From Caenorhabditis remanei (Eukaryota; Nematoda; Chromadorea; Rhabditida; Rhabditidae): 64,000 nucleotides of DNA. A program made the translations under genes and the position numbers. Shown here piece after piece: positions 10,693 through 63,604 of the stretch (position 1 is its first letter; the number at the start of each line of letters is the position of its first letter). The stretch lies in contig NC_071331.1 of the NCBI RefSeq assembly GCF_010183535.1, forward strand, positions 3,534,001-3,598,000, read 5' to 3'. A model generated the notes under the pieces. That model had not been told where the DNA came from. It made no database searches and saw only the letters and a program-made list of their open reading frames with translations.

Positions 10693-10726
10693 CTTCAGGT
10701 TCTCTTAAAAATTTAGGATTATTTGA

Positions 10727-17607: not shown

Positions 17608-18794
17608 TATTTTCCTAGTCTTGAGAGCCATGTCAGGTTAAGTTCCTCCTCCCGTCGCCCAATGTCTCTTATCTGTATAAATCCTAATTGCTCTAATTTT
17701 TTCTCAACTGTAACACCTATTTGGAATGCCTTCACTATTAATGTCCCTCATTTCCTTTGCCCATCGGAATTCAAGTCTCTTCTTGTGAATAATATTGCAC
17801 GATTCTGATTTTTTTTCTTTCTTTATTCTCCCTCCATTTTGCCCAACACCTATTTTATAATTTCTTATTCCCGGTTTCCTTTCTCAGGTTTTGTCTCGTG
17901 AGGGACTTTACCTGACCTCCAGTGACATTTTCTGTATATTTAAATAGTTAAATAAAATATCATATCATATCAATTGGAGCCGGGTTTGAATATCCAGAAT
18001 TATGTCAAGTTCATTACATTGGCTGGCTTTATTCACCTCACGTAGTTCTAGAATAATTAAAACCTGTGACATAAAAAGAAACGTGGAGCACACCCGAACA
18101 ACGTTGTACGAAACCTTTGCTTTTCGTTACAACTTTTTTATCTTTTATTATTCGGTTTTTTTTTCAGTTAAAAAAATATGCTGTTGCAGTTGTTAAGAAA
18201 ATAGTGATTCGATTTTGAACATTGTTGAATGTCCTTCTTTCGTTTTAGAACTCTTCTTTAAAATTTTAAATCATAAATTTTTTCTCAAAATTAATTTTAT
18301 AAATTCTTAAAACGTTACTCAGATTAGCAGTTTCTCATAATGATAAAAAAGTTGTTGAGATAGTACGTTCAAAGTTATTCAAAAATACAAAAAGAGTTGT
18401 TCAAAGCAAGAAAAAATGTGTGCCGTTTTTTTAGGTTTTTCATCAATTCTTTATGACACCCTTGTGAAATTTCTTGCCGTTTCAAAACAATTGTTTCAAT
18501 TTTTCCAAAAATATGTTTAATTATTGTATAATGAAGTCATAGATGTCATACAAGTCGTTTGAACACGCAAAAAAAACCGCACTTTTTTTTGTATTTTTAA
18601 CTTTTCCAGGTTTTTTTCTGTTTTGAATCTGCTTCTTATTGTTTGTTTGGCAAAATTGTTCGTTATTTTCTTCTGATTTATTTTTATTTTAAAAACCACT
18701 GGTCCTTCGTTTCCCAGCCGCATTGAAAGTTAGTAATGCTTGTGTTTTCTGGGATTGGTGACTCACTTGACAGTTTTTTCAAAAATTGTTTGCG

Positions 18795-18860
18795 CTGTTT
18801 CACTTTGTTTTCTGCTTCACAAGCTCTAATTAACATTGTTGATAAACTTCGGGATGTTTT
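18795..18860 (+). ncRNA. Candidate 21U-RNA gene
   Basis: Exact CTGTTTCA at 18795-18802; start TGTT with T at 18840, spacing 38 nt. Predicted RNA 18840-18860. An alternative CATT start gives T at 18837. Confidence 0.6.
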
Positions 18861-20667
18861 TTTTGATTCTAAACAATGTTTTATGTGGAAACGATTGCTC
18901 GTATGATTTAAATGACCGATAACTGTCATTCAAGTCAATTCCATTATTATGTAACCCTTGAAACGGGGTAAGTTTTATACTAAAAATATGAATAATCATG
19001 TCAAAAGAAAGCAATCCTATTCCGATTGTAACTTCTTACCGATTAAGTCATTTTTGAATTCTATTTATGGTTCCATACGCATTTAAAAAATGAACGAATA
19101 TACAAGATTTCTGATTGAAACGGAAATTATTCACAATGCAGATTATAAAAAAGGTTTTTGAGTGTAATCTTTGCAAAATCGGTGGATTGAGCTCAAATAT
19201 TACGAAACACAAACCAGGAAAAAATATCTTCAAATTTAATTTGTATCTCTAAAGTCGTTATGAAAACCTGTTTGAAAAATATCATTTTTCTGTTGCTTAT
19301 AAGCTTGATAATTATACGATTAGTGTAGTTTTCCAATTTCTCGATTTAAAATTTTTCGATTTTGAGTATGACATCAACACGACTGTTCCAATTGCTGTGA
19401 GCTCGGAGCATAAGCGTTTTCAACATGAAACAAGGTACCACAAGTGATCAATAAAAAATTCATTTAATCAGTAGCGACAAGTTTTAACACAATGTTGAAA
19501 TGTTAGAGAAACAGTAGAAAAAATGTGTTTCACGAAATTTTTCCTAGTTTTAGAAAGGATATTACAGACCAAACGAAATAATTAGGCAAAAACCTGGATT
19601 TTAGATTTTCTCTAGATAATTTCCGACTGCCAATAGAGTGTGTTCTCTCATTTTCAATTAAACTATGAAACTTATTTGATTTTGAAAAAATGCCGGTTTC
19701 TATAAATGTTCAATTACATTAACCACAAAACTAAAATTGGTTTCATTTTTTTAACTGCAACATTTTTGGGATTCAGTAGATGCCGAATTCGTAGATATGC
19801 AAAACGCCTGTAGGACTGGGATCAGTACAAATACACCAAAGTAGTAGTTTAAAAAGCTATACAAACAGTGAAATCGGTTAAGAGGTTCCTTGTTTTGCAA
19901 CTTATTTCTTTTTCATGCATGGTTTGAAACGTCTCTGACTTGGAAAGCTATTAATTAGATTTGATCTGGTGGAAAACTTAGTTGTTTGATTGATAATTAC
20001 TGAACGTTGTGTAAAATTTCTTCATACAAACTTGAATAGTTAATTTTCAGCAACTTCTGACCAGGCAAGATTGCCGATCCGCTGTGTTTAATGTGTGAGG
20101 TCTCAAAATTAAATTTTATTTCAGCTTCATTGAAATTATTTTTTCATTTTGTGTGAGAAAAAAATTAGTGTGAGAAAATAATTTCTATTCAAACACATTT
20201 TTCCATTTCAGGTCTTTCATTTACCCAGGTATCAAATGAAAAAACATTAATTCACTTTTAAACCTTGGAAATCGCCTTCGAAATCGAGATTTGGAAACCT
20301 ATTGCCAGCGAGTAAGCAATTTGAAAAGGTAATTTCATTTACTGATGGTTATAGTTCCATCTTTTTGTTTTAAATGGTCATGTTGAAATAGTAAATTTAT
20401 GTGATTTTGTTCTCCAATTTTTTAATCGAACTCAAAAAATTTGTTTTAAAATATTTTCAAAACATCATGATTTCATTTACATGTGTTTCCGCTGCATTTT
20501 TGGTTATCCAGAAGTGTTGTTTCAACAGAAAAGTTTTTGAGACGGTACAGGAAGAAAATTTTTTTAAATGAAAGTTGACCCATATAAATGCAGCTCTTTC
20601 ACTTTTGTAAACAGGATCTTCCTTTGTAAAACTTATTTTTGAAACTGCTCTTAAAACAGTAAGAAAT

Positions 20668-20733
20668 GAAACCAACCTTTCGATACAACTATTTTTGAAG
20701 CTTACACAAAACTTTCAAAACCTAGTGAAACAG
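20668..20733 (-). ncRNA. Candidate 21U-RNA gene
   Basis: Exact motif on the minus strand (20733-20726); start TAGT with T at 20688, spacing 38 nt. Predicted RNA 20688-20668. Confidence 0.65.
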
Positions 20734-20973
20734 GATATTTTCCAAAAAAAATCCATAATTTCATGAACCACTATGCGAAATTCATATAATTTTTTGGAAT
20801 TGCAATACTGTTGATGGTCTCCTTCAGAACATTCAAAGAACACTGGTCGAATTGCAAAAAAATAGTTTAGAAGTTATTATTTCGGCGCTATTGTAAGTAC
20901 GCTCTATTGCAAAATTTTTTAGTTGATTTACTGCAAACATAACAAAAACGTTTTCAGCATTTTTGTTGAAATT

Positions 20974-21039
20974 AAGTTTTTAATGGACGTTAGATTATTG
21001 ATCTTGGCAATGTCCATAAACGTGATGTTTTTGAAACAG
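20974..21039 (-). ncRNA. Candidate 21U-RNA gene
   Basis: Exact motif on the minus strand (21039-21032); start TAAT with T at 20994, spacing 38 nt. Predicted RNA 20994-20974. A plus-strand motif begins 50 bases away at 21089, giving a divergent pair. Confidence 0.65.
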
Positions 21040-21088
21040 TGAACAGGCGACATGATTTACCGTCCAAACACCAATTAGATAATGATTA

Positions 21089-21154
21089 CTGTTTCAGAAA
21101 TTTTTTTTCACGTTACAAATTTATATTATCTAGTGAATTGTGGAAACATGTTAT
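21089..21154 (+). ncRNA. Candidate 21U-RNA gene
   Basis: Exact CTGTTTCA at 21089-21096; start TAGT with T at 21134, spacing 38 nt. Predicted RNA 21134-21154. Confidence 0.65.
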
Positions 21155-22559
21155 TAACCATGTTAGTAGCAACATGATGTTACCCTTATTTCCAGAAATC
21201 CTTGAGCATTGTTTTTTTTCGGTTCCGGTTATTTTTCAATTAATCGATTTTCTAGTTAAGAAGATTTTGATGTAATAGTGTTCGGAGGTTTCAATTTTCT
21301 AGTCCAGTTTTGCACTAATCCCTGCAATATTAACGAGTTTGTTGTCAGCGTTCCACAATTTTGTGAGAAATTACAAATTGGCTTGTGTTTAATTTGTTTC
21401 TGGGCGTCACATAACTAATTCCTAGAAAAGCAATTTGATTCAACATGAGTTTTCAAAACAGAAAACTTATGAAACACAATCTGATATGAGTTGATCGCAG
21501 AAACTTCGGATTCTACAAATGGATAAAATATTTCTAAACACTATAGATTCAGTATCGGTGATTCATAGTAAACTTGAAATCAGAATTTATTTATGATGAT
21601 GTTCTGTAACAGAAACGAGTTTATAATAATGCGCCAAAAAATTGTTTGATTTTCGGAACATTTTAAAGTGTTTCTAAATAGCCACGTTTCCAAGGCCTAA
21701 ACCAGATATTAATAAAACCGAGTTTTGTTCTTGGAAGGGTTTCATTCAAAAATTGCAACACTTGCAGTCGTACTGTAGATTCACTCCACCGAAAAGTTGT
21801 TTTTCTTGCAAAAGTATTACAAAATGTCACAAAAGTTAAACACTGTTCACTGTTTTTCAAAAATTTTAACTTGCCACTGATTCAGAGATTTTTGGTTTTA
21901 TTTCGGCTTTGCTTCTCAATGTAAAAAAACTTGCTTACTCTGATGGAATTTTGAATGTGAATTCTTGGCAAGTGATAGTTATAAAAATAGTTTACTTCTG
22001 AATACTTGCAAGAAAAACTAGTCGTTTTGTATAACAAAAGTTGGAATTTATTATCATTCTACCCCGTTTCATTAAATTGATTTGCAATAATGATTGGATT
22101 CGCTTCCAATCCAACCGACCAATGATGGTGTGGCACTCGGAATTTTTCGAAAACAATGATACTCACTAAACTGATGTTCACTAAACAATAATAACACCCA
22201 ACATACAGTCCAAGAAAAAAATTATTTGAAACGTTGATTTTTTTCATAAATCTTTTAATTGCTTGCTACTTATTCAGACGGAAACGCTCTGCTAAGCAGT
22301 GTGACTCGACTTCTTTTTTGTTTTGTTCTTCCAGTTGGTATAGTTGAATAACTGAAAAATTCTGGAAAAGGGCTAGAGGTTACTGTAGAAGTTAACAGAT
22401 CTCGAAAATACAAATTTGGAGTCGTTGTAGGTGAAATAAAGTAAAATTTGAGCTAATTATTATCTGGAGATCGTTTTTAAAATGTATTTTTAGCCTGAAA
22501 CTTAGCGAGTTCTCGAATTTCTTGTTGTTGCTTGGTTTACAAAAAATGCTACTTATTCA

Positions 22560-22627
22560 CTGTTTCAACTTTTTTTCAATAGACTAACAGGCCAGCAATG
22601 CATTACTTCTATTTCATATTCATTGAA
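22560..22627 (+). ncRNA. Candidate 21U-RNA gene
   Basis: Exact motif at 22560-22567; two possible starts, CATT (T 22604, 37 nt) or TACT (T 22607, 40 nt). It is a diverged duplicate of the locus at 28015. Confidence 0.55.
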
Positions 22628-23135
22628 TTACAATGTTTCGAACTGATTGAGTTTTGAGAAGTGTCAAAGAAAACAGAGACTTTCACCATCAAACTATTAC
22701 CGATTAGAATTGAAACCAAAACCTAGACGAGTGGCTATAAAAAATCATTATGTGTTTTAGTAACAGAACAAAAACAGAAACATTTTTGATGCACATTTTT
22801 CGAGTTCACAAAAGATATTTGTAAACTTTTTTAAATAACCTGAAATCGGTCAGCATTTGAAAGAACTCATTTTTACATACCAGAGTTGAAGATTGAGTTT
22901 AGCATAGAGAGCTTGGTGTGAATCAATAGAAATGCATTCATTTTAGATTCCGTAACAGCAGGTTGTAACAAAATCTGAGTTTAAAAGAACAGGTTGTAAC
23001 AGAAAATTAATTTCCTCTCTTGTTTGAATTCCAAACCATGATCGTAAATTATACGTCTTCGCAATAATAAAAATTTGAGTTCCTACTTTTTCGGCGCTTT
23101 GGAAATTTGCTCTATTTTCAGTAACCGTTAGTTGA

Positions 23136-23202
23136 AAGTTTCAAATCGGAATAAGACTATTCCAACAGAAAACTCCCGGATTTCATTACGTTCTAGAAAC
23201 AG
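23136..23202 (-). ncRNA. Candidate 21U-RNA gene, variant motif
   Basis: Minus-strand CTGTTTCT (23202-23195), one base from consensus; start TAGT with T at 23156, spacing 39 nt. Its duplicate at 28729-28722 keeps the same motif and spacing (T 28683). Confidence 0.35.
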
Positions 23203-23355
23203 AAAATTCCAGGAAGCATTCTGATTGTTCAAACTTTTCTTCTGGCTATCAAAACGTGTTCAGTTTTCCACGTATTGTAGCTCGAACTAATGAACACTGC
23301 AAATATTCATCAGAATTTTAACTCCAGTCTGGCCCGTAGAAAAAAGTGGTCAAAA

Positions 23356-23421
23356 ATGACATATGCATCTTCCCTATTATGGTTGCCCATTGTTAAATGT
23401 TAAGAAACGTTTCTGAAACAG
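23356..23421 (-). ncRNA. Candidate 21U-RNA gene
   Basis: Exact motif on the minus strand (23421-23414); start TAAT with T at 23376, spacing 38 nt. Predicted RNA 23376-23356. Confidence 0.65.
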
Positions 23422-23869
23422 AACATTTTCAGACATTATGAATTAAGTGAACAGTTTCAGACATGGAGGAAATACATTCGGTCATTGGAGGTCACTTATT
23501 CCACATCATAAGATTATCCTGACACTCTAATAAAAAAATAATAATTTGATTTTTACTTCTATCAAAAATTTTCAAGCATTTTTCTGTTCCAAATTGTATG
23601 TATTGTCTCGCTTATATAATGAAATCGTTATTTGCCAATTTTTACCACCGTTTTTTATATAGATTTGTTTATTTGCCTTATTTTTTCTTTACTATCCACA
23701 ATTCACGCATTTTAAACAAGCTATTTGATCGATTATTCTTTAAATTCAGTGTTCCAGAAATCTTGAAAACGAGCCAAACTCTGAGTTCCTTTCCGGATTA
23801 AGAGGACAGGGGGTAATATATCACGATGTTTGTTCTGAAACAATTGTTATGTAAAACCGTGATACAAAA

Positions 23870-23938
23870 TATGTTAGTAATATCTCCCAAACACCTCATG
23901 AAAAAGGTTAGTACCATATCACAATGTTATTGAAACAG
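23870..23938 (-). ncRNA. Candidate 21U-RNA gene
   Basis: Exact motif on the minus strand (23938-23931); start TGTT with T at 23890, spacing 41 nt. Only eight bases separate it from the plus-strand motif at 23947. Confidence 0.5.
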
Positions 23939-23946
23939 AAGTATCA

Positions 23947-24012
23947 CTGTTTCAGGTTGATTTCAAGATTCTTAAAAGGTGCTCACTTTAATTAAAACGT
24001 TTTTCCCTATTC
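23947..24012 (+). ncRNA. Candidate 21U-RNA gene
   Basis: Exact motif at 23947-23954; start TAAT with T at 23992, spacing 38 nt. Predicted RNA 23992-24012. Confidence 0.65.
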
Positions 24013-24081
24013 TTTTTAACATGATGGTAGTACGCCAGTTTTGACGGTTGCTTTACAATAAATGTCTAAAATTAGTTTTCT

Positions 24082-24148
24082 CTGTTTCAGATATACATTC
24101 AATCTCAGAGTGTTATGATCCGTGTGCTTTTGAGGTAACTTTTGAAAT
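24082..24148 (+). ncRNA. Candidate 21U-RNA gene
   Basis: Exact motif at 24082-24089; start TGCT with T at 24128, spacing 39 nt. Predicted RNA 24128-24148. Confidence 0.6.
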
Positions 24149-24539
24149 ATCTAGTTCAATGATTATTGTAACTTCTGGGAAGGCAAGGAAAATCTCAATT
24201 ACCTATGAATTTTTAAACAAAACTATGACAAATTGATGCGCTACTATCACAAAAAAATTCATCTCTGTTTTAGTGATGTTGTAATAATAATCTAGCAGAT
24301 ACTGTTTTCAGTGTATAGTTCTTCATAGCCATACGAACTTATATCAAAATAGTGATTCAGCTGAAAAAAGTTTGTTCAATGTATCACGGTTTCAGTAATG
24401 TTAAAATTACTTTCAATCATAAAGCATTTTCAGTTATTAGTTATCGTGAAATCCTTCTCGCCAAGTGTCAGAGCCTGAAGACATAGCTGGGAACGCGATA
24501 TCCAAAGTTTCAAAAATATTGGTTCACTTTTAACCGTTT

Positions 24540-24605
24540 TATGACAATCCGGGACGCGCGGGACGAGGACGCGGGACGTCCCGCCGCGTCCCATTTCAAG
24601 CCCTA
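24540..24605. repeat. GGGACG-rich GC island
   Basis: Short GC-rich patch in AT-rich DNA, with repeated GGGACG and a central GGGACGTCCC palindrome. Probably a fragment of a dispersed repeat like the GGGCC elements at 8131 and 63605. Confidence 0.4.
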
Positions 24606-24667
24606 CGTTAGCTCTCGTTTATCGAATAAGTAATAGAGGTTGAAAAATTCAGACGCTATCGAAACAG
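24601..24667 (-). ncRNA. Candidate 21U-RNA gene, variant motif
   Basis: Minus-strand CTGTTTCG (24667-24660); start CGAT with T at 24621, spacing 39 nt. Confidence 0.35.
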
Positions 24668-25739
24668 TAAATGAACTGTACTAGATTTCATCAAAACAAG
24701 CTGCTATAAACTTCGTTTTTGCTAAAATTTATTTGTTTTCTAATTTGATTCCCGTTTGTTAAACATTTCAAACGAATGGCCACTTATACAATGGACAACA
24801 GTTCTCCAATGCGTGATGTTCTTTTATAAAATTTCAAGCTCGCAAAAACCAGGTGTCTTTATTTCGATAGTAGTATCAGTAATTGCAAGGAGTCGCAGTG
24901 CATAAGTCCCAAATCAACTGGCAGATCGCAATTACATAGCCTATAATAAAAATAGTGAAGCAGTAAATTATTTTGAAATTCTTCTATATTTAGTGCATTT
25001 TGTAAAGATAAAGGTACATTTTGAAATTGTTTACAGCTTGAAATATATATGCGTTTTCCAATCAATCCGAAAAATCTAAATATTGATTAGAATATAAATA
25101 CAGACAAACGAAAAACTGCATTGCACATTTGACAATATGAGCCTCTTGAAGCCGTATCATTTCTCTTTAAAAAAGTTGAAACTCTGAGATTTGGTAGAGC
25201 ACAATTTCTACAATTACAGTTTCAAATATCCATTCTCATAAATGATTCGCTGGTTACAACAGTGAGTGTGTGTCCTGACGTTTACTATTCAAAAATTTTT
25301 TTTTTGTTCTTCAGTTTCATAGATTTTATGATTCCGCTTTTCCTGAAAGATATTAATAATGTGATTTTTTCGAGTAGCCTTCATCGATCTCATTAAAGCG
25401 TCTTAAAGTTAATTCATCAGACAAACATCAAGGAGTCTTGAATTTATCACAGTTTCACTGTCATTGTAAATGTAACGCAACATGTAACACAACTTTGAAC
25501 AAGTGTAATTTTTGAATAAACACTTTATTATCCTACATAAAATACAATGTCGTTGAATTTATGACTTACCTCCGGGAAAAAATGTTATTTTCCTTGATTT
25601 ATTTACCGAAAAAAAACTGTTCTTTTTTCGTTTCGTTGTTCCGGAGAGCCTCATCATGAAACTCTTTGTAAAAGCTACCGGTAAAATGCAAGCATAACTC
25701 GAACCGACCTCATTGAAAAGTTCATTTGCAACTCATTTT

Positions 25740-25808
25740 CTGTTTCAGGTAAAAGATGTGATTGACCTCTAACTAAAGATTTTTCATTGATAGAACTTCC
25801 GCCTAGAA
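25740..25808 (+). ncRNA. Candidate 21U-RNA gene
   Basis: Exact motif at 25740-25747; start CATT with T at 25788, spacing 41 nt. A recent duplicate at 26527-26534 keeps the motif but has no YRNT at 36-43 nt, so that copy may be dead. Confidence 0.45.
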
Positions 25809-28014: not shown

Positions 28015-28080
28015 CTGTTTCAGCTTTTTTGAATGGACTGACCTCCCAGCAATTACTGGTGGATTCATTTAATAACCACT
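28015..28080 (+). ncRNA. Candidate 21U-RNA gene
   Basis: Exact motif at 28015-28022; start TGGT with T at 28060, spacing 38 nt. Paralogue of 22560; the motif is kept while the predicted RNA has changed. Confidence 0.6.
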
Positions 28081-31540: not shown

Positions 31541-31660
31541 ACCCAACATTGAGAAGTATAAGTCATTCTACGTTTCTATTCCTTCCAAAATTGTGTGATT
31601 TTCCTATTTCTGATTTTAAATTTATTCAACTCTGTAACCAAGTTTCGAATACTGCCCACA

Positions 31661-53000: not shown

Positions 53001-56000
53001 CATTTTTCTTTGACGTGAGAAAATTCAACGGATATGCTATCTTTGAGTAACTCATAATGAAGTTTCGATAATATCCTACTAATCCTAGAAAAGATTGCAA
53101 TTGTTTGACGTCTTCTGGTCTAGCAAATTTCTTCATTTTGTCTACTTTGGCCTCTTCTGTTTTTACTCCTTCTGGAGTGATCATATGGCCCAAGTAGTCC
53201 ACCTCTTCCCTTGCTATCCAACATTTGCTGGCTTTCAGCTTCATTCCACTTTTTTCGATTCTTTCTAGAATCGTTTGGACATGGATAGCGTGTTCTTTCA
53301 TGTTCTCACTAGCAATTAGCAAATCATCGACATATACAAAGACACAAGTCCCTAATAAATCTCCAACAACACATTCCATAGCTGCTTGAAAAATAGCAGG
53401 AGATGTGGCTAACCCGAATGGCAAAACATTCCATTCGAATAACTCTGATCCGATGGCAAATGCTGTAATTTCTTTACTTTCCTCTTTCAGAGGAAGTTGC
53501 CAGTACCCTGCAAGAAGATCAAATGTGGTGAAAACCTTCTTTCCTGCAAGTGAAAGAAGCGTTGTTTCAATGTTCGGTAGCGGATGCGCATTGTATTTGA
53601 TAAGCAGATTCACTTTTCTGTAATCAATGCACATTCTCACTGATCCGTCCTTCTTCTTCACTAACACAACCGGACTCGCCCATGGAGATTTACTTTCTCG
53701 TATGACTCTTTGTGACAACATTTTCTGAATCATTTTCCTGATTTCCCCTCTGATCGCCAACGGAATAGGTCGCGCTTTCTGCCTCACTGGCTGAGCTCCC
53801 TCTGTCAACTCAATCTCGCACTCAACAACATTAGTTCTACCCAACTCAGTATCATCCGTAGCAAATATATGTTGATAGTCTTTTATGACCTTCCACACAT
53901 CTTCTTCTTCTTCGGACTTAGCACATGTTTTCTTCAACTGCTCACAAAGAATGTCCCATCTTTCCCCACTATTAACATTTGTCTCGATCAGATTGATGGT
54001 CTCCATATCTTGTTCCAGAAGTTTCGACCTTTCGAAGAATTCTTCCAGCAGTTTCATGTTTTCTTCGTTTTCTTCAATGACGTCAAACCCCTCTACTTCT
54101 CCACTAGCTATGAGTTCACCTTTTTTCAGAAAAATTGTTTTTTTCCCCAAATTACTCATTTGAACCCTCGCTTTTCCAGACTTTCTGATTTGATAAATAG
54201 CTGGTGCAAGACACGAAACCATTGGTGTAATCAGACAAAGACTCTTGTCTTTTCTAATTGTTCCTTCAACTGAAACCTCAACAATTTTCTCACTTCCTGG
54301 CGGTATTTTCACTTGTCTAACCATTCGAATATCTCGCGGTTTCTTTTGAAAACTCATCTGTATGCCTAACAACTCAAATTGATCAATTCCCAAGATTACC
54401 GTATCTCTGTCAATATCAGTGACATAGAACTTTAGATCCCTTGTGCGAGAATGGAGCGATGTTTCCACCTTTACCTGGTATAACAAGTTCATCGGAGTGT
54501 TGTTTGCAGCGTAAACATCGATCTTTTCTGGGTTTTTAAGAATTGCTTCTTTTTCCCATTCTTTCCCTCCATTCTTCTCCACAACTTCTTTCCAAGTGTT
54601 CTCCGAAATGACTGAAATGCAAGCCCCGCTATCAATCACAAAGTTTACTTCCGCTGAGCCAATCCTTCCTTGTTCAATTCGAACTGGTGTACGACTATTC
54701 TTGTTTTGTTTGGATTTTTCCGCTTCCGGCATTTCCAGACACTCCTTTTTATCAAGTGTTTGCACTTTTGCCATATCCCCTTGGCTGTTTAGTTGTTGTG
54801 CACCTTTCTGCGGACAGTTTGGAGCAATATGTCCTTGTTCATTACAGCGGAAACAGACAACAGGATTGCTTTTTCTTGGTGTGCTTGACCCCGGTGCTCT
54901 CGAGCACTTTGGGTCATGACATCCAGTTAATCGACACTCTGAGCACTCACTAAACCCCACCGACTTATTAACCACATTATTACCACCAGCATTGTTTGTC
55001 GGAACAAACTTTCCCTGAGATCTTTCTCTCCAGTTCTGCGACGTTTCATCATTGCCTACAGTTTGCTTATTTCTTGAATATGAAGTGTTTTGGTTTGAGT
55101 AGTTGCTTTGCTGGTTTGAGAAATTTTGATTCGACTGCTGTCGATTCATTTTCTTCTCATTCAGCTTTGCTTTCCCACTTCTCCATTCTTCATCGAAACG
55201 CGTTGCTTCTTCTCGGCACAGCTCGTATTGTTCCATTTCAGGACATTTTCTCAGCTGTGACCCCAGAATTTGCAACGACACATCGAATATAGAGTGTTCT
55301 TTCATTTCATCGAGCAACTTTGTAGTTTTCATAGAGGAAATTTGATGTTCTGGTACGCCTTTGTACCCAACCCGAACTATTTCATCCATTTGCAAACAGA
55401 AACTCTGAATGGATTGTTCTTTCTGTAGCTTTAGCCCTTGAAATTTGCTCTTAGCTCGGCGTGATTCTTCTGGTTCTGACTGACTCAATCGTCTTTTGAT
55501 AGCGTCGAGAATGCGTGAAACCGAATATTTATCTGATTCTGGCAAGCCTTTATATACTGTCAACGCGTTTCCCGCCAGGAATCTTGTTTCTAGAAAGCTT
55601 TTTTGTGCCTCGATGTCAAAGAACCTATATTTCATGTAAAATGCTCTCTCAAAAGTTTCTGCATTGACAGAATTCTTTCCTGCAGAGAATACCGGAGGAT
55701 CAGGCAGCGCTTGCGTCATTCTCCATTGCATATTCATGTTCGGCATTTCATGTCCATCATGGACAATTATGCTTCTTTGAGCATCTTGTTCAACTATTCT
55801 TTGATTCCAATTTCCCCCAGAATCACGCGATTCTTGGCGAGGTATAGTATCAATTATTTCTGACGTGTCTGCATTGTAAAAACGCGCATTTTCTCTTGAC
55901 TCCCCCACTTTTCCGTTTGTCTCACCTTGCCGGTGCATTCCATGTTGTGGCGTTGATGTTGCGAACATGGAGTGCCTTCCTGTAGTCTGAACAATATTGT

Positions 56001-56043
56001 TATTTTTCTCACTAGTCAGTAATGCTTTGACGTTGCTCACCAT
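50086..56043 (-). CDS. Retrotransposon Gag-Pol polyprotein with extra C-terminal domain
   Basis: 1,985-residue polyprotein that makes and integrates the element's DNA copy. Approximate residues: capsid-like region 90-290; zinc knuckle CFRCNEQGHIAPNC (about 394); aspartic protease IDSGA (about 469); reverse transcriptase with YVDD (about 904); RNase H with YTDAS (about 1054) and TDHKP; integrase with the zinc-binding HEGELAGH and CQKC (1284-1320), the catalytic Asp in ACDLID (about 1351), the Asp in LLTDQG (about 1409) and the Glu in CVERFN (about 1447); and a GPY module NKWRGPYRV (about 1590). All catalytic residues are present. About 340 residues follow that I cannot assign; they have no clear membrane segment, so they are not an obvious envelope. 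The start at 56043 overlaps the end of the upstream ORF. Confidence 0.92.
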   Translation of the reverse strand: MVSNVKALLTSEKNNNIVQTTGRHSMFATSTPQHGMHRQGETNGKVGESRENARFYNADTSEIIDTIPRQESRDSGGNWNQRIVEQDAQRSIIVHDGHEMPNMNMQWRMTQALPDPPVFSAGKNSVNAETFERAFYMKYRFFDIEAQKSFLETRFLAGNALTVYKGLPESDKYSVSRILDAIKRRLSQSEPEESRRAKSKFQGLKLQKEQSIQSFCLQMDEIVRVGYKGVPEHQISSMKTTKLLDEMKEHSIFDVSLQILGSQLRKCPEMEQYELCREEATRFDEEWRSGKAKLNEKKMNRQQSNQNFSNQQSNYSNQNTSYSRNKQTVGNDETSQNWRERSQGKFVPTNNAGGNNVVNKSVGFSECSECRLTGCHDPKCSRAPGSSTPRKSNPVVCFRCNEQGHIAPNCPQKGAQQLNSQGDMAKVQTLDKKECLEMPEAEKSKQNKNSRTPVRIEQGRIGSAEVNFVIDSGACISVISENTWKEVVEKNGGKEWEKEAILKNPEKIDVYAANNTPMNLLYQVKVETSLHSRTRDLKFYVTDIDRDTVILGIDQFELLGIQMSFQKKPRDIRMVRQVKIPPGSEKIVEVSVEGTIRKDKSLCLITPMVSCLAPAIYQIRKSGKARVQMSNLGKKTIFLKKGELIASGEVEGFDVIEENEENMKLLEEFFERSKLLEQDMETINLIETNVNSGERWDILCEQLKKTCAKSEEEEDVWKVIKDYQHIFATDDTELGRTNVVECEIELTEGAQPVRQKARPIPLAIRGEIRKMIQKMLSQRVIRESKSPWASPVVLVKKKDGSVRMCIDYRKVNLLIKYNAHPLPNIETTLLSLAGKKVFTTFDLLAGYWQLPLKEESKEITAFAIGSELFEWNVLPFGLATSPAIFQAAMECVVGDLLGTCVFVYVDDLLIASENMKEHAIHVQTILERIEKSGMKLKASKCWIAREEVDYLGHMITPEGVKTEEAKVDKMKKFARPEDVKQLQSFLGLVGYYRNFIMSYSKIAYPLNFLTSKKNAWVWGTEQENAFVQLKSSVCSAPVLRQPDPETAISGARPYLIYTDASRQGVGAVLAQEANDGEQHPIAFASKSLTSAETRYHITDLEALAMMFALRRFRTIIYGSQVIVFTDHKPLISLMRGSRLADRLMRWSIELIEFNPKIVYVKGKANVVADALSRGGCPLIDPDDMETGDMPNIIGEVKMIKAGNKFDTSEWLEKLRKEDGWNEVIGRLENGEKTGSVKIPGIKKGIWLDNYMIIGKSLRNTEDENCSRLVVPEEIIPSLIKEAHEGELAGHFGTEKMLRQLNKKFFWLRMRARVENHVKSCQKCLYTNDYTKMVAPLNPYKTEYPLQIVACDLIDVGLSTQGNRYILSIIDLFTKYGIGVPIPDKKGVTVLKAFIERWAIGEGRVPEVLLTDQGKEFCNEHFQKFAELVKMKHITTKGYNSRANGCVERFNKTLMHTIKKQNAVAAEWDDQVPFAVYAYNSVVHKTTGDSPMFLMYGRDAKGGLEKIGDDACGVSYVDMDEYKNLLVQELNKAYAFVKEHALQEQQEHKVLFDAKHRISQKSYPQPGARVLVEIPSEKMGARYPKLTNKWRGPYRVISCSENSAMLVPVAGGNRELLKVPFENLRNIPPQMDNTPVETKKGRARLRNTAVEEISGKMVEDNNHDLCIFSELFWCRCQRPCVFFLPNNKDLRFHSPTQFARASQLLQKHKDLKKDDMMMLVQKRLPMFPELPTEEAWMILGQCPTLNIWVKDIVLWREAFELQYAMTLEKCLGSELLQSMSAMVFCFPGVELKSVALALKHVKLLKDEDTVAERIRKNLETKEVNVAVFVIPFSTSEQAKDSWQESIHAVPKEIDVIVVFGHVTQFDHAEGEIFTQLVKELYRLEGKLTVLGPDFTVKFNLNRTLLNVSDRSKCLKYWEVVERIVKEEKIIWPHLKLETLESVENNQTDEATGASGSGFGPIRAHNSRGSRSGSYGLGSYSKFRQNR

Positions 56044-56794
56044 AGCGAGTCAGACTATTTGACTGATTATTCGCCGCCACAGTGTCATTCTCCTTTTTCA
56101 ATTTCTCGTTTTTCTCCTCTTCAGCCTTCAGTTTTAGTTGTAACATCACGATTTGTTGTTTTGCTTGGAAGTATTCTTCTTTTGATCGGTCCGATTGCTC
56201 GCGTGCTTTCTGCAATAATTCTTTGTGTGTACTTAGCTCATTTCCCAGCTGCTCTATTTTTCCGAACAGTTCATTCAATGCTTCTTCATTATGAATTTCA
56301 TTTGCTTCTAGCACACTCACCATATTCATTCTTCTTTCATTTTCTTGAATCGATTGACCGGACAGCTCTTCGAGTGGCGTCGGCGGCTGTGGTGGACTTT
56401 TTCTTTCCAATTCGTCCTGCAATGACAAAACAGTTTTATTTAGTTTGACATTCGTATTTTCCCAGAATTCACTTTCTTTCTTTTTCCCACGGAATTGTTC
56501 TTCTACTTCTAGAATTTTACCAATGAGTGGCGACAACAATACTCTACACTGTTTCGTGCTGAATTTTGTCTGGTTTTTGATGTCAGTACAGGTTTCATTG
56601 ATAACTTTTTCAATTTCCGCTAGTCTCACCTCTTGGACTCGTTTGTCTTCGTCTCCTTCATCCATCGGTTCTTCTGCCAACAATTCGTTTTCGCGACGAA
56701 TCCTTTCTTCCTCAGCCAATCGATTCGCTTCTTCTTGCCGAATCCTTCCTTCCTCAGCCACTCGATTCGCCTCTTCTTCTTCGATGTCCGACAT
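56012..56794 (-). CDS. Retrotransposon ORF1, coiled-coil protein
   Basis: 260 residues, strongly charged and rich in Glu, Arg and Lys, with an N-terminal repeat of the type EEANRVAEEGRIR / EEANRLAEEERIR and long heptad-like stretches (120-240), so a coiled coil is likely. It is followed by the polyprotein in the +1 frame with a 32-base overlap, where the stop TAG lies just inside the polyprotein. A structural (Gag-like) role is inferred from position. Translation of the downstream ORF could use frameshifting, reinitiation or splicing; the overlap contains GGTGAGC, which resembles a splice donor. Confidence 0.7.
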   Translation of the reverse strand: MSDIEEEEANRVAEEGRIRQEEANRLAEEERIRRENELLAEEPMDEGDEDKRVQEVRLAEIEKVINETCTDIKNQTKFSTKQCRVLLSPLIGKILEVEEQFRGKKKESEFWENTNVKLNKTVLSLQDELERKSPPQPPTPLEELSGQSIQENERRMNMVSVLEANEIHNEEALNELFGKIEQLGNELSTHKELLQKAREQSDRSKEEYFQAKQQIVMLQLKLKAEEEKNEKLKKENDTVAANNQSNSLTRYGEQRQSITD

Positions 56795-57182
56795 CTTTTC
56801 TCGTCGATGATAGAGTTTACCCTGGAAATTATACTTGATTATTCAATTTCGCAAGGCTATATTGACGAAAAAGAAGTAAATTCACGATGAAATGACGATT
56901 ATTTCAAAGAAATGAAACAGCTTCTCCGAAGAATTCACACACAGTTATTCTCTGCGAACAATTTGAATTTTCCGACAAGAAAATACTTGAATTTTAGAAA
57001 TTCGCAATGTTTTTGCCAAATTCTAATTCAAATATTAGCCTTTTCGAAAAATTTTACTGTTTCAGCACGAAATTTTCACCGAAAATTAATTTCCGACGAA
57101 AAAATCAATAATTTTCCCGGAAAATCGACGTTTCCGTTGAAAATTATGTGCCGAAATCAGTAAAACTGACAAAAATTGAGTG

Positions 57183-57448
57183 TGCTTCCGGGTTCACGTG
57201 TAGCAACACTTAATTTTGTAACAAGAGGCAGAGAAAACTGAATGTGCTTCCGGGTTCACGTGTAGCACACACAATTTCCAACAAGAGACAAATAAAAACT
57301 GACTGTGCTTCCGGGTTCACGTGTAGCAACAGACAATTCTTATACTAGAGGCAACGAAAACTGATTTTTGCTTTCCGGGTTCACGTGTAAGCAAAACAGA
57401 ATTCTTATCACTTTGCTAGACTTTCTTTCCGGGTCCACGTGTAAGAAA
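57183..57448 (-). other. Five hairpins with constant loop in the retrotransposon leader
   Basis: Five units about 60 bases apart, each with the 15-base core TCCGGGTTCACGTGT (one has TCCGGGTCCACGTGT) at 57187, 57249, 57310, 57374 and 57428, as read on the plus strand. The flanks are always complementary but differ: TGCT/AGCA, TGTGCT/AGCACA, TGCT/AGCA, TTTTGCTT/AAGCAAAA and TTTCTT/AAGAAA. Paired changes that keep complementarity argue for a selected structure. The core contains CACGTG, an E-box palindrome. Functions such as packaging, translation control or enhancer activity are conjecture. Confidence 0.8.
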
Positions 57449-57507
57449 TACTAACAAAATGAACAATTCTCTCTTCCGAAGAAGATTTCGGAAACGAGAG
57501 GTCAAAC

Positions 57508-57525
57508 AACGGCGTTCGGCCCCCA
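57508..57525 (-). other. Primer binding site
   Basis: Directly after the 5' LTR the minus strand reads TGGGGGCCGAACGCCG. The TGG start fits the CCA end of a tRNA, and TGGGGGCC is compatible with a tRNA-Pro 3' end; the tRNA identity is from memory and should be checked. Confidence 0.65.
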
Positions 57526-57997
57526 AGTCAGAAAGTTAGACGTGACAACGGTGTCACGCTAGCTTCTGGTAAACAGACAATGAGCGAAAGACAAGAAAAT
57601 CAATAAACACAAGTTTTCGAGTCAACTACTATTTTATTGATCTCAATTTATGCAATTGCCAACAAGACAATTGCTACACAAAAAAGGTTGGGAAATGAAT
57701 AAAACCTAATCCCTACTAGACAATTAAAACAATAGAAAAAAGGTGACAAAAACCACCCAAAAAGTAGAAACGGGCGAAACTTGACTGAAACGGGTAAAAA
57801 TCACCAAACTCTAGGTGACCCCAAGCTCAAGAATGATTACAAATCTCTTTTTCTCTTCACTTTCACATGTTCGCGCCGGAGAATAGATACAATGCGCCAG
57901 AGCGCAACTGCATCGAGCCCGCGAGTTATGAAGGCAAGTCTGAAACTTGATAAGACTTTATGGACTTTTTAGAGATAAAACCGGTAGGTACCGGACA
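57526..57997 (-). repeat. 5' LTR
   Basis: 472 bp, promoter-bearing LTR of the minus-strand element. It appears identical to 49290-49761. Confidence 0.9.
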
Positions 57998-58360
57998 TAT
58001 TCTCAATTTTTTTAACACCCGACAAAATTTTAATTCTGTTCCAAATGGTATGTATTGTTTCGATTTAAGTAGTGAAATTGTTAGGGGACCTATGAATGAA
58101 AAAGACGAATGCAACCATCTATTTTAGTTGGAAATTTCAGCCCTAGTCCTGTTAAATTTGAAATGATTAAAATTGTTGAAATGATTAAAATTGTTTGAAT
58201 TTTTTACATTTTCTACAGTTTCAGTCAGTCGATTTACTTTACGACGTTTATTTGTTTTCAGTGACGGAAGGAATTTGGTGTTTTTTTAAAACTAAACTTT
58301 CTGATTTTCATCATCTATCTCCAAAAACATATTATTTATTGAAGTTTTAGCATGGATCTG

Positions 58361-58428
58361 GTTGTGGGGGCCGAAGTCAAAACGAAAGTTCCCATTACAA
58401 GTATACTAATGAAGAACCCGTGAAACAG
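58361..58428 (-). ncRNA. Candidate 21U-RNA gene
   Basis: Exact motif on the minus strand (58428-58421); start CGTT with T at 58381, spacing 40 nt. Confidence 0.5.
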
Positions 58429-59695
58429 ATTCTCCTTTATTTTCAAACAGACGTCCCCAATGAGAATTTACTATTTCCAGATCAATCACAATCTCTCAGA
58501 TGTCAGTTTCAATGTTTTCTATTTTTTTCTTATTTTAAGAATGAAAATAACCAAATATTTAAAAATTTGAATAATTAGAATAATTAGAATTGAAAGAGTC
58601 AAATGGCTTTTCTTATTTCCTAGTAACAGGTAGTTCATTTTTAAGGTTTGTAATGAGAATGATCTATCAGAACACCGATTAAAATATCGCGCATTCCGAG
58701 AGCTTTGAAGAAGATATCGAAACAGTAACTTATCATCATTTAGGTTATAAGTGTGCTCTGTCAGGATTGTTTTCAATAGTATTATCGGCAGGATCAGGTG
58801 ATAAAAACATCTTTACCGAAAAAATGTGGATTTTTCAGTTTCAGATTTTTTGTGAATTTGCACTCGTGAAAGCGATTTGATATTAATATAGCTTATCCTG
58901 GAAGATTATCAAACACGAGAAGCAATTTTCTGAATTAACTTCAAAAAAGTTGCAATTTTTCAACAAGTTCTCAGTTTTTGATTACTTCCGGACAATGAAA
59001 TTTTCAGATTTTGAAAAATTAGAACATCTCTTGTGCTGTTGCGAAAATATTTTAAAAGAGAAAAAAAAATGTTTTTCAATAGTTTGGTTTAATATCGGCT
59101 GTGTGAACGCGTCTAATTCAATTCGGATCAAGATCATCAAAAAGGAAAAAACTCAAATTTCGATGTCGAAACATAAAATTTTCATTTATTTATTTTTTCA
59201 GTAAAAGCACGTTCAAATCTAGTTAACACTACAGTTAATCTTATTTGCAGTCGGTTGTTTGTGTTGATAGAAGTATGCTTTTTCAATAGAAAGTCAAACA
59301 TAAATATACAGTTTCTCACTTTCTACTTAATATCTGGTTCTTTAAACAGAACGTTTCCAGTTATCATCAATGTGGTCCAACTTTATCATGTAGTCTCAAA
59401 CAGCTTGAATCAAAAAATGGTCAAAAACATAATCAGACGTGAGTTTTCAAATCATTTTCACCCCTAATCAGTGTTTGGCAAAACATCTGTGAATCCTCTC
59501 AAAATGTCGGACATACTACGGGTCGGGTCGGGCTGCTTTCAGAAAAAGGAATGAGGCAAAGTGATGAAATTTTTTAAATCATTTCTCCGTAACAGTCTAT
59601 AAGCATTTTTGCATTGGCACGGTTCAGAATACTTACTAAGTATCACACCTCCTAAATTCTTTAAAGATGATATTGAAACGGTAATATAACTCTCA

Positions 59696-59761
59696 ATGTT
59701 TCAGAAAGATTGTAAATCTGCTCTCTAAATATTTCATCGATTTTGATACACTAAAAATATC
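59696..59761 (+). ncRNA. Candidate 21U-RNA gene, variant motif
   Basis: ATGTTTCA at 59696-59703; start CGAT with T at 59741, spacing 38 nt. Confidence 0.4.
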
Positions 59762-59889
59762 AACATCTACATAATAGTATTGACGAACAATGTAGAATTT
59801 ATCACGTACCCTCTATTAGGCAGCTTTTTTGTTTTAGCGAGAGGAAGTATAAAATGCTTTAAATTCACTTGAATAACGAGGAACTTTTA

Positions 59890-59955
59890 GACACGATGGT
59901 TGTAAACTCATTATAATTTCAGATTGTCCCTCCTGACACATCACTTTTGAAACAG
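59890..59955 (-). ncRNA. Candidate 21U-RNA gene
   Basis: Exact motif on the minus strand (59955-59948); start TAAT with T at 59910, spacing 38 nt. Confidence 0.65.
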
Positions 59956-60150
59956 ATTAGTTTCGGGTTTCACAATGATTTTAATATGGACTGTTCTTCT
60001 TCAACAAACCTGTTAAAATAAAATCACTTTGTACTATGTTTACAAGATTTATCATATTCCCGTATCTGGAAATTTATTTGTTATCCGAGGGTTGTACTTT
60101 ACAGCTACTAGACTAAAATTGTCACATATACCCGGATAATGTTTAAAATT

Positions 60151-60216
60151 TTCACTAGAAACTTTGACAAACCAGTTACGAAAAAAACCAAGAAATTTAA
60201 GGTGCTATCGAAACAG
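60151..60216 (-). ncRNA. Candidate 21U-RNA gene, variant motif
   Basis: Minus-strand CTGTTTCG (60216-60209); start TGGT with T at 60171, spacing 38 nt. Confidence 0.45.
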
Positions 60217-60366
60217 CAATTTTCAAAACATTTCTCTGTAGTATAATAAGTTTGTCCCACTGGCCGGAGTGATAAGTTTTGTACTATGCATGCACAAATA
60301 TTTTTGAACCATTTTTCTTAATTTCATCACATTAGCTTTGGCGTGATAAACATAGCGTACAGATTC

Positions 60367-60434
60367 CTTGATGCCCCGCTTCGATTAACGAAGTATTTTA
60401 ACACATGTTAAAAATTATGGAGTACGTGAAACAG
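60367..60434 (-). ncRNA. Candidate 21U-RNA gene
   Basis: Exact motif on the minus strand (60434-60427); start CGTT with T at 60387, spacing 40 nt. Confidence 0.5.
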
Positions 60435-60800
60435 TCTCATATATTTTGGAAATGATTACTTTCCAGGAGCAGTTTGCTCCATCGGGGAAATTGGAAATGA
60501 AAAAAACAACCGCGTTTTTATGAGAAATTCGATACAAACACAAAATTTTACAATCTTTATTGCATCGGGTTCGGTTCTCTTCCAAGACAAGACCCATCCA
60601 ACAAAACATATAGTTATTTTCCAAACATTTTATGGGTATCAGATAACGTTTTATTTCCCATACTTTCATTATTTCCTAGTAACAGGGTTAATCACAGGTT
60701 TTCAAAATGAGAAAGATGCTCACGCATCCCGGAGGCTTAAAAGATGATATCGATACAGTAACTTTATAAGCTCATAAGTTAGCCCATTAGAATTTTATCA

Positions 60801-60867
60801 CTGTTTCAGAAAAATAGCTTATTTGATCTATATCTAATTGGTTCGATGTATTTGAGTTCATTTGTTA
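60801..60867 (+). ncRNA. Candidate 21U-RNA gene
   Basis: Exact motif at 60801-60808; start CGAT with T at 60847, spacing 39 nt. Confidence 0.6.
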
Positions 60868-61041
60868 CATAGTCCCACCTGATACAGTATGACCCGGATC
60901 CACATACATTTTAGTCTGCACAAAAAGCTACACATCTTCAAGATCAATTGAATAAATCCCCTCTTCTGCAAACAATTATACTAACAATAAAACAGTGACT
61001 CGACTCAAAAAACTGGAAGTTTGAAATATATATATGTATCT

Positions 61042-61107
61042 CTGTTTCACTAATGTTGTGAGTACACTCTATTAAACATTTTTCATTATGTCATGGAACA
61101 GGGGGTA
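61042..61107 (+). ncRNA. Candidate 21U-RNA gene, disrupted by a transposon
   Basis: Exact motif at 61042-61049; start CATT with T at 61087, spacing 38 nt. The predicted RNA (61087-61107) runs seven bases into the hAT-like element that starts at 61101, so that insertion changed its 3' part. Confidence 0.55.
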
Positions 61108-61642
61108 CTCGATTTTAGAACTCGGAAAAATAGAACTGCGACAAAATAAAACTGTAACAATATAGAACAGGAAAAAATAGAACTGTTACAAAGTGGAACA
61201 GTGAAAGTTAGAACTGCTACAAAATAGAACTCCACAAAATAGAACTGAACGAAATGGAACTGCTACAAAATAGAACTGTTACAAAATAGAACTCTACCAC
61301 TGGTTTTGAAAATGCTTATTGGGCTTATCTTATATTATTTTATACAGTTTTTTGTTGACTATTAAATAGACAAAGACTTTATCTTCATAAAATAAGTGTT
61401 TTTAGTCGACTTTTCTCCTCGAAAACTGGTTAAAATTCTTCTAAAAAGTCACGAATGCAAACGCGCTCCAATCGAACTAGAGTTCTATTTTGTAGCAGTT
61501 CTATTTTGTAGCAGTTCCATTGTGTTCAGTTCTATTTCGTCGCAGTTCCATTTTGTTCAGTTTTATTTTTGTCAGTTCTATATTGTTACAGTTTTATTTT
61601 GTTGCAGTTCTATCTTTCCGAGTTCTAAAATCGAGTACCCCC
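61101..61642. mobile_element. hAT-like foldback element with 8-bp target duplication
   Basis: 542 bp. The ends GGGGGTACTCGATTTTAGAA and its complement are flanked by ATGGAACA on both sides (61093-61100, 61643-61650). The arms consist of degenerate tandem units of about 15-16 bases around AAAATAGAACTG, in opposite orientations left and right of a central spacer (about 61294-61480). The 8-bp duplication suggests the hAT superfamily. No transposase. Confidence 0.85.
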
Positions 61643-61724
61643 ATGGAACAATCTGTCATAATTTTTCAATTCACATGCATAACAAAAGTGTAAAGCGTCT
61701 CAATTCGGTGCTAACTGAGTTGCC

Positions 61725-61747
61725 TCCCCCCCCCCCCCCCTCCCCCC
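61725..61747 (+). repeat. Poly-C tract
   Basis: A run of about 16 C, a T, then six more C, in AT-rich DNA. Simple repeat; its length may be unreliable in an assembly. Confidence 0.8.
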
Positions 61748-61950
61748 AATGAAAAATAAGAGAGAGGGCGGAGCCTAATGTGCACTTTAATATCACATCG
61801 GCTCTTGACGTTTCGTGCTTTGTTTTGTTTCCCTTCTTTTTTGCTCTTCAGAAACAAAAAGTACATGTATGATGACATGTCACTACAGTGAAGTATTTAT
61901 CCAAATACATACTTCAGATCATATTGAAACATTGAATAGTTTTATTTTAT

Positions 61951-62017
61951 CTGTTTCAGTTATGTATGTTCAGTTTTGTTTACTTATTTTTATTGCTAAT
62001 CGACGGATAAACCAAAC
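61951..62017 (+). ncRNA. Candidate 21U-RNA gene
   Basis: Exact motif at 61951-61958; start TGCT with T at 61997, spacing 39 nt (alternative TATT, T 61994). Confidence 0.55.
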
Positions 62018-62462
62018 TTGAAATCAGGGCCGACGCGAAACTCGTTAAGAGCACAGTGTTATGAGCTAAAAAATATTCGAAAACGTAGATCTCTGCGATT
62101 TCTATATCCGTGACCTACTACGGGTTGGATGGCAATGTTTTAATGATCCGCGGTTCGGGCTAGAGCTATCTGTATAAAATTCGTAACAAAGTGTAGTTCG
62201 CGGGATAATGAGTGATACGATGACATATTCTCAAAGTCGGACATTTTCGACTGAAGAGATCACACAATATAAAAAGGAATCATTCTAGTGAAAAAATTCT
62301 CCCACCTTATACAATACTTTTGAAACCGAAATTTTCCTTTAGAAAAATTTTCTTTAGAAAAACCCCAAATCCGATTTATGGTTTCAAAAAAGATTATTAG
62401 ATAGGAAGACCTATCATTTAAATCTTGTATATTATAGAATATAGCGCACTGAAATTTAGATA

Positions 62463-62606
62463 CCGTAAAAACTGTAATAGAGGCGCATGCGCTTCCATTT
62501 TTCAACCCTCTTCTGAAAGTGCGCAGGGGCGCCACTACATATTATTCAAACCGCTTTTCAGAGTGCGCCTCTATTAGAGGGCGCTTCTATTACAGTTTTC
62601 ACAGTG
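62463..62606. repeat. Small MITE-like inverted repeat
   Basis: Ends CCGTAAAAACTGTAATAGAG and, in complement, CTGTGAAAACTGTAATAGAA, both followed by GCGC-type sequence, around a short GC-richer centre. Target duplication not clear. Confidence 0.6.
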
Positions 62607-62662
62607 ACCACTGGAGCATTGTTATTTGTCTCTTACTACCTAATTGCAAGATTTTGAAACAG
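62598..62662 (-). ncRNA. Candidate 21U-RNA gene
   Basis: Exact motif on the minus strand (62662-62655); start CAAT with T at 62618, spacing 37 nt. The predicted RNA reaches the edge of the MITE ending near 62606. Confidence 0.45.
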
Positions 62663-63604
62663 AAAACCTTCAATTTTTTAACTGGAAATTTTAAGATTAT
62701 GGCTAACAAACTATAGAACATCTCCCAAAGTTTAGCGCTGGAAATTGAGTGAAAACAATCAATCGTCCTATTTTTTTGTTTGGTAACATCTCATAAAATT
62801 GTGAAAACTCTTCATCAGGCGAAAAACAATTATGTGTCAAATTTTATAATAGTTTCACTTCTATTGTGAGTATAAACAAATAGAAATCAAGAAGTTAGTT
62901 TATTTGTTCTTACCTTAAAAACATGTCATATGACAAACCAAGCTGGTCCTTTTCAAAGTCAGCTATAGTGGTGCAATCCTTGAAAACATACTGAAGCCGA
63001 CTTCAAACATAGTGGTTTTTGGGAATGTATTACTGTTTCGGAATTATTTTGAGTATTCTTTATTGATAATTTTGATTTAATGAAAGCAACTTAGGAATCA
63101 CCTTTCAAATTAAAATGTTTTTTTGTTTAAAAAAAAAGTTTTCTAAAGTCGAAGTACGTTAGACCCATACCCGACTTATGATGCAAAAAATATATTATTA
63201 CACAGGAAGACCTTAAATTTATATTATGCATCCAAATTTTAGCGCAATTTAGATCATTTTGTCTTTTTTGGAGAAGACATTTAGATATATGACTATCATC
63301 ATCAATCTAATCCTAATTTCTCTTTCTAAAGTTTCGTTTTTAAAACGGAAAATTTTACAGTTTCACAATAGGTACATCTTCCTCTTCAGAGTTCGTTATT
63401 GATTATTTCATCCACCATCTGAAACACTTCTTCGTAACATGTAATGGGGTCGCAGGAACTTATCAGCAAATGTCTGTTCCAAAGTCTTCGATGTTAAAAT
63501 CTAGTTTTAAGCTATCCACGGTTTCACACACTCTATTAGAAATTATTATTTTTACTTTCTTCAATAATCTTCACTATTGAGATCAATTTAAAAAAAACAT
63601 TTTC

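Follow-up and report, generated by a model that had tools for sequence, protein, structure and literature searches.

A probable type I 21U-RNA cluster in a gene-poor tract of Caenorhabditis remanei

The window analysed here is a 64-kb stretch of the Caenorhabditis remanei genome (NCBI RefSeq assembly GCF_010183535.1, contig NC_071331.1, positions 3,534,001 to 3,598,000, forward strand), scanned on both strands, in which three gene-poor blocks (18.0-30.6, 47.1-49.3 and 58.0-63.6 kb) carry many copies of a short core followed at a preferred distance by YRNT. The original prediction was that these are type I genes for Piwi-interacting RNAs (piRNAs). Very probably the blocks belong to a Caenorhabditis type I (Ruby-motif) 21U-RNA/piRNA cluster that two mobile elements have split. 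The prediction agrees with the motif and its spacing, the start signal, the presence of sites on both strands, their density and the genus, and it gains further from two facts it had not used, the spacing of a second core and the sharing of cores by old duplicates. In what follows, a bipartite site is a C[T/A]GTTTCA core (CTGTTTCA or CAGTTTCA) with a YRNT 38-41 nt downstream, d is the number of nucleotides from core to YRNT, and the U position is the T of the YRNT.

Motif pairs in the gene-poor blocks

The three blocks hold 21 exact copies of CTGTTTCA, on both strands, just as had been counted by eye, against a mean of 1.6 (maximum 6) in 100 dinucleotide shuffles, which served as the control for core counts and for 38-nt pairs; the whole window holds 30 (shuffle mean 4.9, standard deviation 2.0, maximum 11). 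No other of the 840 letter permutations of this 8-mer is as frequent in the window (30 versus a mean of 2.8), and after C8/G8 CTGTTTCA is the most over-represented 8-mer of the tandem-masked blocks, where a trinucleotide model predicts 2.73 copies rather than 21. Outside the blocks it ranks 909th of 32,658 8-mers, in a ranking that omits one palindrome arm and one LTR.

The spacing is equally marked. A YRNT lies 38-41 nt downstream of 20 of the 21 block cores, where other distances predict 6.8. In nine of them the distance is exactly 38 nt (p = 2e-5), and the original prediction lists all nine T positions correctly. The wider range of 37-41 nt quoted there also gives 20/21, although this count carries less weight than it seems to, as 8.1 of 21 are expected by chance in a 5-nt window. 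Over the whole window the 38-nt YRNT follows 12 of 30 cores (p = 1e-6); the remaining distances between 5 and 120 nt average 2.4 pairs (maximum 8), and shuffles give 0.47 pairs at 38 nt (maximum 3). Shuffled sequence, proposed as a possible refutation, thus reproduces neither the motif density nor the 38-nt spacing. The sole exception in the blocks, 26527, is a diverged copy of 25740, and aligning the two shows its spacer to be 11 nt shorter. The observed distances of 38-41 nt fall within the spacer range of 35-42 nt given in PMC3597512.

Next in abundance in the masked blocks is CAGTTTCA, with 19 copies against 2.87 expected. It was selected by abundance alone, not by spacing, yet the distance of 38-41 nt to a YRNT recurs in 13 of the 19 (control mean 5.3, maximum 10, p = 3e-4, a value somewhat optimistic because three duplicate pairs are among the 13). 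When the two cores are pooled, 33 of 40 block copies are so spaced, 21 on the plus and 12 on the minus strand (Table 1); control windows average 12.1 downstream (maximum 18) and 12.0 upstream (maximum 17). According to PMC3597512, 77% of male and 21% of female 21U-RNAs in C. elegans lie downstream of a core with a 5' C, so that a male bias here would be a guess.

Bipartite sites number 20 in 18005-30600 (1.59 per kb), 3 in 47100-49285 (1.37 per kb) and 10 in 58000-63600 (1.79 per kb); elsewhere there are none in 30601-47099, which is the first insertion, 0.23 per kb in the long terminal repeat (LTR) element and 0.33 per kb in 1-18 kb. If every GTTTC is counted, the excess of YRNT pairs is 39 (95% interval 26-54) in the blocks and 13 (0-27) in the rest, which suggests about 39 loci in 20 kb, or about 1.9 per kb. 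Not each site listed in Table 1 need be a gene.

Table 1. Segments of the piRNA-like tract, the insertions between them, and predicted 21U genes (window coordinates)
Feature	Position	Strand	Core	d (nt)	U position	Remarks
piRNA-like tract segment 1	18005..30633					20 bipartite sites; 3' end is GCCAAAGAT at 30625-30633
Insertion 1, mobile element of about 16.5 kb	30634..47122					Interrupts tract; Polinton-like fragments
piRNA-like tract segment 2	47123..49289					Between insertions; starts with second GCCAAAGAT, ends TATT; 3 bipartite sites
Insertion 2, Ty3/gypsy (Cer-like) LTR retrotransposon	49290..57997	-				Interrupts tract
piRNA-like tract segment 3	57998..63600					After LTR element; starts with TATT; 10 bipartite sites
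Predicted 21U gene	18795..18860	+	CTGTTTCA	38	18840	
Predicted 21U gene	20668..20733	-	CTGTTTCA	38	20688	
Predicted 21U gene	20974..21039	-	CTGTTTCA	38	20994	
Predicted 21U gene	21089..21154	+	CTGTTTCA	38	21134	
Predicted 21U gene	22560..22627	+	CTGTTTCA	40 (or 37)	22607	Duplicate of 28015
Predicted 21U gene	23356..23421	-	CTGTTTCA	38	23376	
Predicted 21U gene	23452..23520	+	CAGTTTCA	41 (or 37)	23500	Duplicate of 28964
Predicted 21U gene	23870..23938	-	CTGTTTCA	41	23890	
Predicted 21U gene	23947..24012	+	CTGTTTCA	38	23992	
Predicted 21U gene	24082..24148	+	CTGTTTCA	39	24128	
Predicted 21U gene	25217..25283	+	CAGTTTCA	39	25263	Duplicate of 29833
Predicted 21U gene	25312..25377	+	CAGTTTCA	38	25357	Duplicate of 26224
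Predicted 21U gene	25740..25808	+	CTGTTTCA	41	25788	Duplicate 26527: shorter spacer, no YRNT in range
Predicted 21U gene	26224..26289	+	CAGTTTCA	38	26269	
Predicted 21U gene	26844..26911	-	CAGTTTCA	40	26864	
Predicted 21U gene	28015..28080	+	CTGTTTCA	38	28060	
Predicted 21U gene	28375..28442	-	CAGTTTCA	40	28395	
Predicted 21U gene	28964..29030	+	CAGTTTCA	39	29010	
Predicted 21U gene	29594..29661	+	CAGTTTCA	40	29641	
Predicted 21U gene	29833..29898	+	CAGTTTCA	38	29878	
Predicted 21U gene	47796..47863	-	CTGTTTCA	40	47816	
Predicted 21U gene	48327..48393	+	CAGTTTCA	39	48373	
Predicted 21U gene	48483..48551	-	CTGTTTCA	41	48503	
Predicted 21U gene	58216..58282	+	CAGTTTCA	39	58262	
Predicted 21U gene	58361..58428	-	CTGTTTCA	40	58381	
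Predicted 21U gene	58836..58901	+	CAGTTTCA	38	58881	
Predicted 21U gene	59890..59955	-	CTGTTTCA	38	59910	
Predicted 21U gene	60367..60434	-	CTGTTTCA	40	60387	
Predicted 21U gene	60801..60867	+	CTGTTTCA	39	60847	
Predicted 21U gene	61042..61107	+	CTGTTTCA	38	61087	
Predicted 21U gene	61951..62017	+	CTGTTTCA	39	61997	
Predicted 21U gene	62595..62662	-	CTGTTTCA	40	62615	
Predicted 21U gene	63358..63423	+	CAGTTTCA	38	63403	

Weighing the cluster assignment

Local duplications within the blocks raise the possibility that a repeat family spread the pattern or that it arose by chance in A/T-rich DNA. We regard this as extremely improbable: neither shuffles nor other distances reproduce the pattern, and without four duplicate copies (26527, 28015, 42870 and 11692) the 38-nt YRNT is still found in 11 of 26 cores (p = 2e-6). 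The 33 predicted 21-mers are all distinct and most flanks of the sites show no relationship to one another (median ungapped identity 0.31); therefore, no single repeat family creates the pattern.

The 8-mers could also be 3' splice acceptors (TTTCAG) of unrecognised genes, as the core is followed directly by G in 9 of the 21 block cores and the 58.0-63.6 kb block has eight open frames of at least 80 amino acids, where 40 shuffles gave at most seven. There is scarcely any likelihood of this, since the other 12 cores lack the G, a splice acceptor would not call for a YRNT 38-41 nt downstream, and none of the 22 block frames of at least 78 amino acids matched Pfam above cut-off. The longest open frame of segment 1 has 115 amino acids (shuffle mean 117). 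Below the cut-off, block frames gave an Adt-1-like match at 60418-60675 on the minus strand (E = 3e-4, 21.5 bits versus 31.8) and five further matches with E values of 0.036-0.096; the Adt-1-like stretch, a possible gene remnant, overlaps a predicted 21U site.

According to PMC6436959, the Ruby motif derives from a promoter element of small nuclear RNA (snRNA) genes, and SNAPc-type, snRNA-like promoters might thus produce other short RNAs here instead of piRNAs. We think this very unlikely, as no Rfam family was found in the window at gathering thresholds and both the density and the both-strand layout match piRNA clusters.

Several observations weigh against the cluster assignment. In unbiased scans, which tabulated k-mers by distance on unmasked or tandem-masked blocks and took in 8-mers counted at least eight times, CTGTTTCA at 38 nt ranks first of 45,356 tests on the masked blocks (9/21), but its p-value of 1.3e-5 is not significant once corrected. 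TGTTTC is second in the masked 6-mer scan and TGTTTCA is fourth among masked 7-mers. In the unmasked 6-mer scan the signal (TGTTTC, p = 3e-5 among 92,916 tests) is only eighth; most of the k-mers ahead of it are taken to stem from tandem arrays at 61.1-61.6 kb. These arrays, of 16/31 nt, form an inverted pair at 61101-61642 within segment 3. The 38-nt signal owes its strength to a motif and distance range that the literature had fixed beforehand.

The cores outside the blocks also tell against the assignment. The original prediction listed four and reported that none had a YRNT at the expected distance. There are nine, the five missed being 10286-, 10727+, 11692-, 42870+ and 56913-, and one of those listed lies at 52905 rather than 52915. 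Three of the nine (10286-, 10727+ and 56913-) do have a YRNT at 38 nt, one of them within the LTR element, and 11692- has one at 39 nt; the cores at 34123 and 42870 fall in opposite arms of a single inverted repeat. When both cores are pooled, 8 of 17 outside copies have a YRNT at 38-41 nt (other windows: mean 25%, maximum 59%), a weak signal. The contrast between the blocks and elsewhere was therefore overstated, and the statement that cores elsewhere lack a YRNT at that distance is false. The 10286- core lies directly upstream of a collagen frame on the same strand.

Base composition does not fit well. A low-melting valley, which piRNA genes should have downstream, was not found, the GC step being 0.052 with chosen starts (p = 0.06, n = 20) and 0.019 with fixed anchors (p = 0.30, n = 21), and the spacer is not A/T-richer than background (p = 0.24). 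The predicted 21U body has a GC content of 0.355 versus 0.305 (n = 20, p = 0.017), a difference for which fixed anchors give p = 0.04 and the 12 sites at d = 38 give p = 0.11. Upstream of the core, the DNA is A/T-richer (p = 0.03); all these p-values, from six measures on four site sets, are uncorrected. As the pausing signal is described as relatively weak in species with clustered, Caenorhabditis-type loci (Beltran et al., PMC6436959), a missing valley among 20 sites means little.

What can be read directly from the DNA is the core, its spacing, the start signal, the clustering, the genus and the candidate insertion sites. If the C. elegans pathway operates here, the upstream sequence transcription complex (PRDE-1, SNPC-4, TOFU-4 and TOFU-5) would bind each core, and RNA polymerase II would start at the YR, two nucleotides before the T, to give a capped 25-29-nt RNA. 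Once this had lost its cap and two nucleotides, a 21-nt 5'-U piRNA would result, to be loaded on PRG-1.

Mobile elements and local duplications

The gaps between the three blocks are due to the two insertions. Over both strands of the window, exact matches to GCCAAAGAT exist at 30625 and 47123 alone; they bound insertion 1, and the pair is a candidate 9-bp target-site duplication. This insertion has CCGG-rich ends and a 4.9-kb inverted repeat (30677-35612 / 41388-46324) that is 99.86% identical. One of its frames matches PF03175, a type B DNA polymerase family, just above the cut-off (E = 5e-6, 26.2 bits, cut-off 25.8), and another has C. remanei CRE_29294 as its nearest relative (64%); a scan of viral contigs for the polymerase fragment returned three pattern matches and no relatives. 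Polinton target-site duplications are 5-6 bp long, unlike the 9 bp here, and the Polinton label thus stays a candidate only. Insertion 2 is flanked by TATT, another candidate target-site duplication, and contains an open frame of 1987 amino acids whose nearest protein is from C. brenneri (55%). Its terminal repeats (49290-49762 / 57526-57998) are identical across 473 nt, which suggests a recent insertion. The three blocks were probably formerly one tract, which the 16.5-kb element and the Cer-type retrotransposon would later have split.

Duplications are also found within the tract. Segment 1 contains old direct duplications (21.2-23.5 with 27.3-29.0, 25.1 with 29.7, and 25.3 with 26.2 kb), and 48.2-49.29 kb matches 62.7-63.56 kb. 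Among 13 duplicate pairs in which at least one copy has C[T/A]GTTTCA, the core is common to both copies in six, compared with 10.5% for other 8-mers (p = 1e-3) and 10.9% for words of equal composition; with alignment edges trimmed, it is common to 5 of 11 pairs (p = 3e-3 to 5e-3). This sample consists of few pairs, partly dependent on each other. Spacer length was compared in two of the six pairs with a common core and had changed in both, by 11 nt in 25740/26527 and by 5 nt in 22560/28015.

These insertions and duplicates bear on whether the tract could be a decayed former cluster, in which the motifs are real relics and most loci are silent, for example through chromatin altered by the transposon insertions. 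Two large insertions lie in the tract, duplicate 26527 lacks the spacing, and in 7 of the 13 duplicate pairs the core is present in one copy only. Moreover, PMC6436959 reports that 74% of C. elegans Ruby motifs in regulated chromatin have detectable 21U-RNAs, versus less than 2% in active chromatin. However, 20 of the 21 exact block cores keep a YRNT in range, duplicates share the core above the null, and the insertion with identical terminal repeats is apparently recent. We judge decay to be unlikely, though less so than the other alternatives.

Returning to a cluster of type I genes, a tentative joint reading of the duplicates and insertions is possible, although we would sooner expect it to fail than to hold. 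New piRNA genes would arise through small local duplications in which the core is kept, while insertions or deletions in the spacer shift the start to another YRNT, so that the 21-mer becomes a new sequence. The large transposons would have brought few or no motif pairs and be unmatched by predicted piRNAs, and the cluster would therefore not be a transposon trap.

The transposon trap was considered in its own right and rejected. When the 33 predicted 21-mers were compared in antisense with the mobile elements of the window, none outperformed a control set of 400 21-mers drawn from YRNT sites elsewhere in the blocks; the best score was 5 with a perfect seed, and scores of 4 or lower occurred in 0/33 versus 4% of controls.

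Other elements lie upstream of the tract. Among the open frames at 1-5400 is one that matches a PIF1-like helicase, and this stretch is probably a Helitron. At 8475-11852, a collagen frame (9351-10253; 91% over 138 amino acids to C. remanei CRE_26048) is flanked by inverted arms (8475-9191 / 11104-11852) that are 80% identical. The element at 13486-18004, whose end adjoins the start of the piRNA-like tract, has identical inverted ends of 397 nt and a second, nested inverted repeat. Protein relatives of the frames in the window point to Caenorhabditis, with C. remanei closest.

Comparison with known clusters

The tract resembles the type I clusters on C. elegans chromosome IV in its CTGTTTCA core, spacer range, YRNT start and many small loci. 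C. elegans has more than 15,000 21U loci (PMC7917550), over 90% of which are placed in clusters of 2.5 and 3.7 Mb (PMC6436959), a density of the same order as the roughly 1.9 per kb suggested here. It may differ from the C. elegans clusters in the prominent second core CAGTTTCA, and it does differ in the two large mobile elements inside it. In C. briggsae, the 21U-RNA clusters of chromosomes I and IV share the Ruby motif, the YR start and the use of both strands (PMC9683057); their loci come from sequenced Piwi-bound RNAs, whereas those listed here are sequence predictions in another species. The same source describes worm clusters as not enriched in transposons, in contrast to the two large transposons inside this tract. 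Among the literature matches listed, no title dealt with transposons inserted into a type I cluster of Caenorhabditis, although we claim no absence from print.

The class is well described in Caenorhabditis, and a review reports that C. remanei 21U-RNAs have already been profiled (PMC6468775); the locus is possibly new or possibly an already catalogued member of that set. As the class is known, the value of the tract lies in annotation and in a small evolutionary case. A single 64-kb window, without RNA data, is enough for recognising a worm piRNA gene cluster. The tract also offers a readable example of two ways in which such a cluster may change. One is local duplication, where copies have the core in common but differ in spacer and RNA body; the other is the entry of large transposons with few motif pairs or none. 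The origin of new worm piRNA genes is a question left open by PMC9683057; if the reading of local duplication is true, it would answer at one locus how they arise.

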